The translations under genes and the position numbers were made by a program. From assembly GCA_030550625.1 (NCBI GenBank), contig JAUQOZ010000023.1, positions 1-46,360 on the forward strand: 46,360 bases of DNA, read 5' to 3'. Every line of letters starts with the position of its first letter. Position 1 is the stretch's first letter. This document shows, piece after piece, positions 29,708 through 29,857 of this stretch. The notes below the pieces were generated by a model. It was not told where the DNA came from. It ran no database searches and saw nothing but the letters and a program-made list of their open reading frames with translations. The stretch is from Chloroflexota bacterium. Lineage in GTDB: Bacteria; Chloroflexota; Chloroflexia; Chloroflexales; Chloroflexaceae.

Positions 29708-29734
29708 ACGTTCCTCCGTGCAAATGGTGATGTA

Positions 29735-29763
29735 CAAAAAACCCCCCGCGGCCAGCGCAGGGG
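29735..29763 (-). terminator. Intrinsic terminator inside the guaB leader (attenuator candidate)
   Basis: On the minus strand CCCC-T-GCG, loop CTGGC, CGC-G-GGGG forms an eight-pair stem followed directly by a run of six T. It lies ~30 bases before the guaB ATG and ~60 bases after the predicted start site. An upstream GCCGGC (29797-29802) can pair with the terminator GCTGGC, which would prevent the stem forming. Confidence 0.7.
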
Positions 29764-29828
29764 AATAGCAACGACTGCTGACTCCAAACGACGGGTGCCG
29801 GCGAGCGCACGCATATCGTTTCGCCTGT

Positions 29829-29857
29829 ACTATACTCTGAGCTGACCGCCTCGTCAA
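29829..29857 (-). promoter_or_regulatory. guaB promoter
   Basis: On the minus strand TTGACG (29852-29857) and TATAGT (29829-29834) are separated by 17 bases. Predicted start near 29822 gives a ~115-base leader that contains the terminator. Confidence 0.8.

Follow-up and report, generated by a model that had tools for sequence, protein, structure and literature searches.

A conserved leader terminator upstream of guaB in the Chloroflexales that is likely to act as a transcription attenuator

In many Chloroflexaceae and Roseiflexaceae, guaB, the gene for IMP dehydrogenase (the gate to GTP), was found to be preceded by a promoter, a short leader and an intrinsic terminator. We are highly confident that the leader terminator is real, belongs specifically to guaB and is strongly constrained in its sequence. 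The comparisons make attenuation at the guaB leader likely, and we lean towards reading the terminator as an attenuator that is regulated in some way. The best explanation is a guaB-specific transcription attenuator of these two families with terminator-proximal sensing, to which we give about an even chance. The window (the whole stretch of Chloroflexota DNA that was analysed, 46,360 nucleotides) carries the following features:

28226..29707, minus strand: guaB, IMP dehydrogenase, 493 aa; ATG at 29707, the same start in 8/8 Chloroflexus genomes
29829..29857, minus strand: sigma-70-type promoter of the guaB leader, TTGACG-17-TATAGT, 10/12 consensus matches; TTGACG at 29857-29852, 17-nt spacer, TATAGT at 29834-29829
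29708..29822, minus strand: untranslated guaB leader, ~115 nt; start expected at ~29822 from the promoter spacing
29797..29802, minus strand: GCCGGC, the antiterminator arm of the preliminary description; present in 2/8 Chloroflexus leaders, not conserved
29770..29782, minus strand: GUCAGCAGUCGUU block (13 nt) just 5' of the stem, from the alignment; kept in most Chloroflexus species
29742..29764, minus strand: terminator stem-loop UCCCCUGCG-CUGGC-CGCGGGGGG, from folding, conservation and helix covariation
29736..29741, minus strand: terminator U-tract, T6, from the sequence and relatives
29733..29735, minus strand: GUA right after the U-tract, in 8/8 Chloroflexus; G(T/C)A is frequent in other Chloroflexaceae
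29713..29717, minus strand: Shine-Dalgarno GGAGG of guaB, from the sequence

A preliminary description of this DNA had proposed a promoter with a 17-base spacer, a leader of about 115 bases and an intrinsic terminator about 30 bases before the guaB ATG, and all three were recovered, with the terminator (29764-29736) ending 28 nt 5' of the ATG. The identity of the product as IMP dehydrogenase was supported by a Pfam match in three guaB orthologues. Folded alone, the hairpin reached -15.8 kcal/mol (z -2.07; 4/200 shuffles as good), and the whole leader was not unusually stable when its fold was compared with shuffles (z +1.18). The single-sequence terminator pattern is not decisive, because the simple terminator scan expects 1.3 terminator-like sites per 1.5 kb of shuffled sequence; in a scan of the 46-kb window, the guaB element was the only compact hairpin and T-run with the look of a classic terminator. 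The longest guaB ORF in the window (28226-29857, 543 aa) begins at a TTG within the promoter and, since the conserved start is the ATG at 29707, automatic gene calling may take the leader for coding sequence.

Comparison of eight genomes from a genus that we take to be Chloroflexus showed both arms of the stem (CCCCTGCGC and GCGGGGG), the T-run and the GTA that follows it to be invariant in 8/8. As a neutral yardstick, 23/250 fourfold-degenerate guaB sites were invariant in the same eight, with pairwise fourfold identity down to 0.38. The pattern CCCCTGCGC..GCGGGG..TTTT occurred once per genome, at guaB, in 8/8. Over 39 leaders from 17 genera, the 5' arm was mostly CCCYCTGCGC or CCCCTCGCGC, and the terminator helix, one of the two alternative stems for which the preliminary description had suggested looking for covariation, did covary (95.6% of cells paired, nine double-change cells, 0/500 shuffles as high); its loop length varied among leaders. 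This alignment (A1) held 39 of 41 rows and left out L003, a near copy of L002 that was also left out of a second alignment (A2), and L154, a false regex match. About 20 nt immediately 5' of the stem were kept in many genera, and outside these last ~20 nt and the stem the leader RNA was not conserved between genera. Conserved bases were also seen after the U-tract (GTACATC in most Chloroflexus, GCATCACC in most leaders of genus g5), a feature for which a plain terminator would have no use.

Regions upstream of guaB were gathered from 82 genomes of the order, and upstream DNA was read in 74. The terminator stem is present in related genomes: the promoter, leader and terminator were found by reading before guaB in 32/39 Chloroflexaceae (family f1) and 10/22 members of family f4, which we take to be the Roseiflexaceae, or 42/61 together, a count in which L133, with a shorter terminator missed by the regex, was scored as present by eye. 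The terminator was missing in seven Chloroflexaceae (three Chloroploca, g4; two Viridilinea, g12; one each of g16 and g18) and in twelve Roseiflexaceae (nine of g21, two of g31, one of g32). Wherever it was present in the two families and the contig was long enough, it was preceded by a TTGAC-17-TATA(G/C)T-like promoter. Across genera, 21 to about 260 nt lay between T-run and start codon (21-29 nt in Chloroflexus), and the leader 5' of the stem measured about 20 to 160 nt, with 20-24 nt between expected start and stem in the g11 and L016 leaders. One leader (L140, G069:C302) has a 15-bp hairpin, CGGCTGTTGTTGGCC..GGCCAACAACAGCCG, near its 5' end and a leader energy z of -4.87.

Elsewhere in the order, all six Herpetosiphon genomes (g20) carried a different guaB leader terminator; their leaders (L047, L048, L149-L152) are highly conserved and contain GACGCA..TGCGTC as a hairpin and GCTCAC..GTGAGC as the terminator. 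The two other genera of family f3 had no terminator upstream of guaB, and in family f2 a terminator was found in 3/5 by strict scan and reading. In the f2 leaders L043, L046 and L153 an ATGAAA lies ~6-7 nt downstream of a TATAAT box and opens a frame that runs into the guaB leader terminator, a possible leaderless leader peptide. Among 35 upstream regions taken from the rest of the class, the scan found a terminator in 7, most of them weak or a long way from the gene, with plausible ones only in family f5 (L188, L189, L191). The element therefore seems to be restricted to the Chloroflexales, perhaps with a relative in f5.

Genomes were also searched with a covariance model (R1) built from 39 guaB leaders. 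In almost every genome of the order that has the leader, the guaB leader was the best match, and R1 also located it in G015, whose guaB lies on more than one contig; in G016, a match on contig C105, just 3' of an ssb-like gene, outscored it. Among 400 genomes of the phylum, 29 matched at E<=1e-4, 27 of them in the order; the matches in G039 (in the order) and in G351 and G457 (outside it) were not guaB leaders as far as examined. As the leaders built the model, their own matches arise by construction, and the informative part is that no comparable matches occurred elsewhere. Reuse of the element at other genes was considered and rejected, the non-guaB matches being weak and those examined not lying before guaB, with two of them (G028 C906, G039 C7) judged from ORF lists only.

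In Chloroflexus no promoter fits into the 21-29 nt between T-run and ATG, so guaB mRNA must come from read-through of the terminator. Of the attenuator originally proposed before guaB, the guaB-owned leader terminator and the required read-through thus held up, while the antiterminator and the leader frame did not. In the mechanism that we prefer, the promoter would start a short untranslated leader, as its anatomy and conservation indicate, the intrinsic terminator would stop part of the transcripts in the cell, and guaB would be made only from those that read through. An RNA-binding protein or ligand may grip the base of the stem, or a GGCG...(C/U)GCC helix that overlaps it, and so prevent terminator formation when guanine nucleotides are scarce. 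The sensed signal is probably guanine nucleotides, a choice that, like the direction of the response, is drawn from the pathway only. Because leader length and sequence are free and the arms, the U-tract and their flanks are kept, the terminator region is the most likely seat of the information that sets read-through. The g11 and L016 leaders point the same way, since with 20-24 nt before the stem any common information must sit there, in the terminator or in the bases after it.

The upstream RNA was searched for an antiterminator, as would be expected of a classical two-state attenuator or riboswitch in which GCCGGC or GUCAGC pairs with GCUGGC. The GCCGGC of the preliminary description (29802-29797) can indeed pair with GCUGGC (29756-29751), with one G-U, but it was rejected as an antiterminator on its presence in two of the eight Chloroflexus leaders, one of the eight being cut by a contig end. 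Better kept was GUCAGC (29782-29777) facing the same GCUGGC, which paired in 92.9% of cells over seven Chloroflexus leaders with one double change; its covariation was no better than that of shuffles (151/500 as high), so that the alternative stem, unlike the terminator stem, did not bear out the covariation looked for. Leaders were further folded up to the terminator loop, and pairing of the 5' arm with upstream RNA was compared with dinucleotide shuffles. In this test 16/38 leaders lay above the shuffle mean (average difference -0.05; 38 of 41 rows, without L003, L154 and L005, whose promoter is off the contig), whereas purine riboswitches, as positive control, were above shuffles in 10/12 (mean +0.12; 12 of 15 loci, three without a found terminator being dropped, and some chosen terminators may be wrong). 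With the leaders negative and the riboswitches positive, no common RNA antiterminator is visible.

Among upstream 4-bp helices, the most frequent in the scan was P0, in which GGCG pairs with (C/U)GCC and overlaps the stem base (A1 columns 16-19/36-39); it was complete in 15/39 rows. P0 paired in 72.8% of cells with 12 double-change cells (3/500 shuffles, the best of all slides), and the number of its pairs with double changes was not above shuffles (220/500). It was found in g5, g11, g13 (partly), g14 (partly), g23, g26, g27 and g34 and was absent in Chloroflexus and several other genera; we take P0 as a hint. Recurring words 5' of the stem were no more frequent than expected, GTCG occurring in 9/17 genera against an average of 9.5 genera for the best word in shuffles. 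The two-state reading draws on the pairing of GUCAGC and on P0 in several other genera, but given the scarcity of GCCGGC, the shuffle-level covariation, the negative sequestration test and helices that differ between genera, we regard it as improbable.

The main rival is a fixed, leaky terminator that holds guaB at a steady low dose, or shields it from transcription coming from upstream, without sensing anything. It would agree with the finding of no antiterminator pairing above chance and no known aptamer, with the free length and sequence of the leader and with the several genera that do without the element. A dose setter, however, needs strength and not a fixed stem sequence, yet the arms are near-identical in both families, although within Chloroflexus fourfold sites approach saturation, and the stem sequence is not reused elsewhere in Chloroflexus genomes; we consider this rival possible but rather unlikely. 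A small RNA gene beside guaB that acts in trans, with guaB read-through as a by-product, is a doubtful alternative and appears quite improbable: promoter and terminator delimit an RNA of 50-90 nt in many genera, the 13-nt block is conserved in Chloroflexus and the cyanobacterial RNA Yfr1 lies beside guaB, though downstream of it (PMC1242208), but conservation of the RNA between genera is limited to the stem and the ~20 nt before it, the RNA is co-oriented with and directly 5' of guaB, and no strong copy exists elsewhere.

It is very unlikely that the terminator closes a co-directional gene lying upstream, or that the inverted repeat serves as a DNA operator. A short minus-strand ORF in the window does end inside the -35 box, but the promoter lies between this ORF and the hairpin, and in L006-L009, among others, the first ORF upstream is divergently oriented, which means that the hairpin does not terminate another gene; the inverted repeat could bind a dimer, but its loop varies in length and the T-run is kept though an operator would not need it. 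Least credible of all is leader-peptide attenuation through the frame at 29814 that the preliminary description had suggested. The ATG and its 49-codon frame, open over the stem and overlapping guaB out of frame, do exist in the window, but the ATG is at the same place in 3/8 Chloroflexus leaders (again with one leader cut by a contig end), no leader ORF is conserved, and the 20-24 nt before the stem in g11 and L016 exclude a leader peptide there.

Two further ideas led nowhere. A reiterative G start is known at pyrG; the start regions of most guaB leaders are not G-runs. The other idea was a pseudoknot or ribosome-binding-site hairpin in Viridilinea and Chloroploca. In the terminator-less Viridilinea leaders (L024, L027), the last ~35 nt before the GTG contain a CCTCC that can face the GGAGG, and a sequestering hairpin was the predicted fold in one of the two (L024, not L027); going by this folding, translational control possibly replaces termination in Viridilinea.

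A bolder form of the preferred attenuator, which we hold as tentative and unlikely, is a very small sensor built into the terminator, in which the stem base and the GGCG...(C/U)GCC helix would together form the binding site of a dedicated protein or of a ligand from the guanine pathway, letting the polymerase continue. If true, it would be the guanine-nucleotide switch of the Chloroflexales with ~20 nt before the stem in some leaders, and Viridilinea may have exchanged its terminator for a hairpin at the ribosome-binding site. In an order in whose 82 genomes no purine riboswitch was found, the guaB element points to a control of guanine synthesis and offers a single, compact site that is testable in cultivated species, and it might be another regulatory RNA hidden in an apparently plain terminator.

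The guaB genes themselves showed one further peculiarity. In three of them (L220, G013:C155; L221, G044:C44; L222, G050:C43) residue ~308 is followed by an in-frame insert of ~420-450 aa. Each insert matched Intein_splicing/Hint, and two also matched LAGLIDADG_3; judged by these domains, the insert is an intein in the IMP dehydrogenase of three Chloroflexales genomes. A fourth genome (G023) has a similar break in its guaB match.

The preliminary description had seen no obvious guanine or PRPP riboswitch core, and the searches agree with it. With Rfam 15 no family matched at its gathering score in the window or in the loci of 10 relatives, weak small-RNA look-alikes falling far below the cut-off, and the purine riboswitch RF00167 was found in 0/82 genomes of the order, with matches in the controls B. 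subtilis and L. lactis; a known riboswitch at the guaB leader was rejected on these grounds. The purine (guanine) riboswitch resembles the present element in that a leader terminator controls guanine-related genes in other bacteria, and differs in lacking a match in the Chloroflexales, where some guaB leaders have no more than ~20 nt ahead of the stem. PyrR and TRAP are RNA-binding proteins that sense an end product, so that a leader terminator is read through or enforced; the guaB element shares the leader terminator with such attenuators and differs in that no conserved upstream antiterminator was found. Yfr1 is likewise a short terminated RNA beside guaB, but it lies downstream of the gene, between guaB and trxA (PMC1242208). 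guaB goes unmentioned in the main text of a survey of RNA regulons that covers Chloroflexi (PMC3766115), and no report of a Chloroflexus guaB attenuator was found in the open-licence literature. The nearest published idea found is the HMP-PP (thiS motif) riboswitch, whose aptamer is embedded in the terminator (PMC6478431). In both, the leader is compact, little more than an intrinsic terminator is conserved in it, and it is tied to a single metabolic step. The HMP-PP riboswitch uses an alternative helix that disrupts the stem near the U-run, whose guaB counterpart is weakly supported, and it has an unusually conserved terminator loop and a pseudoknot, whereas in the guaB element it is the arms, and not the loop, that are conserved (PMC6478431).
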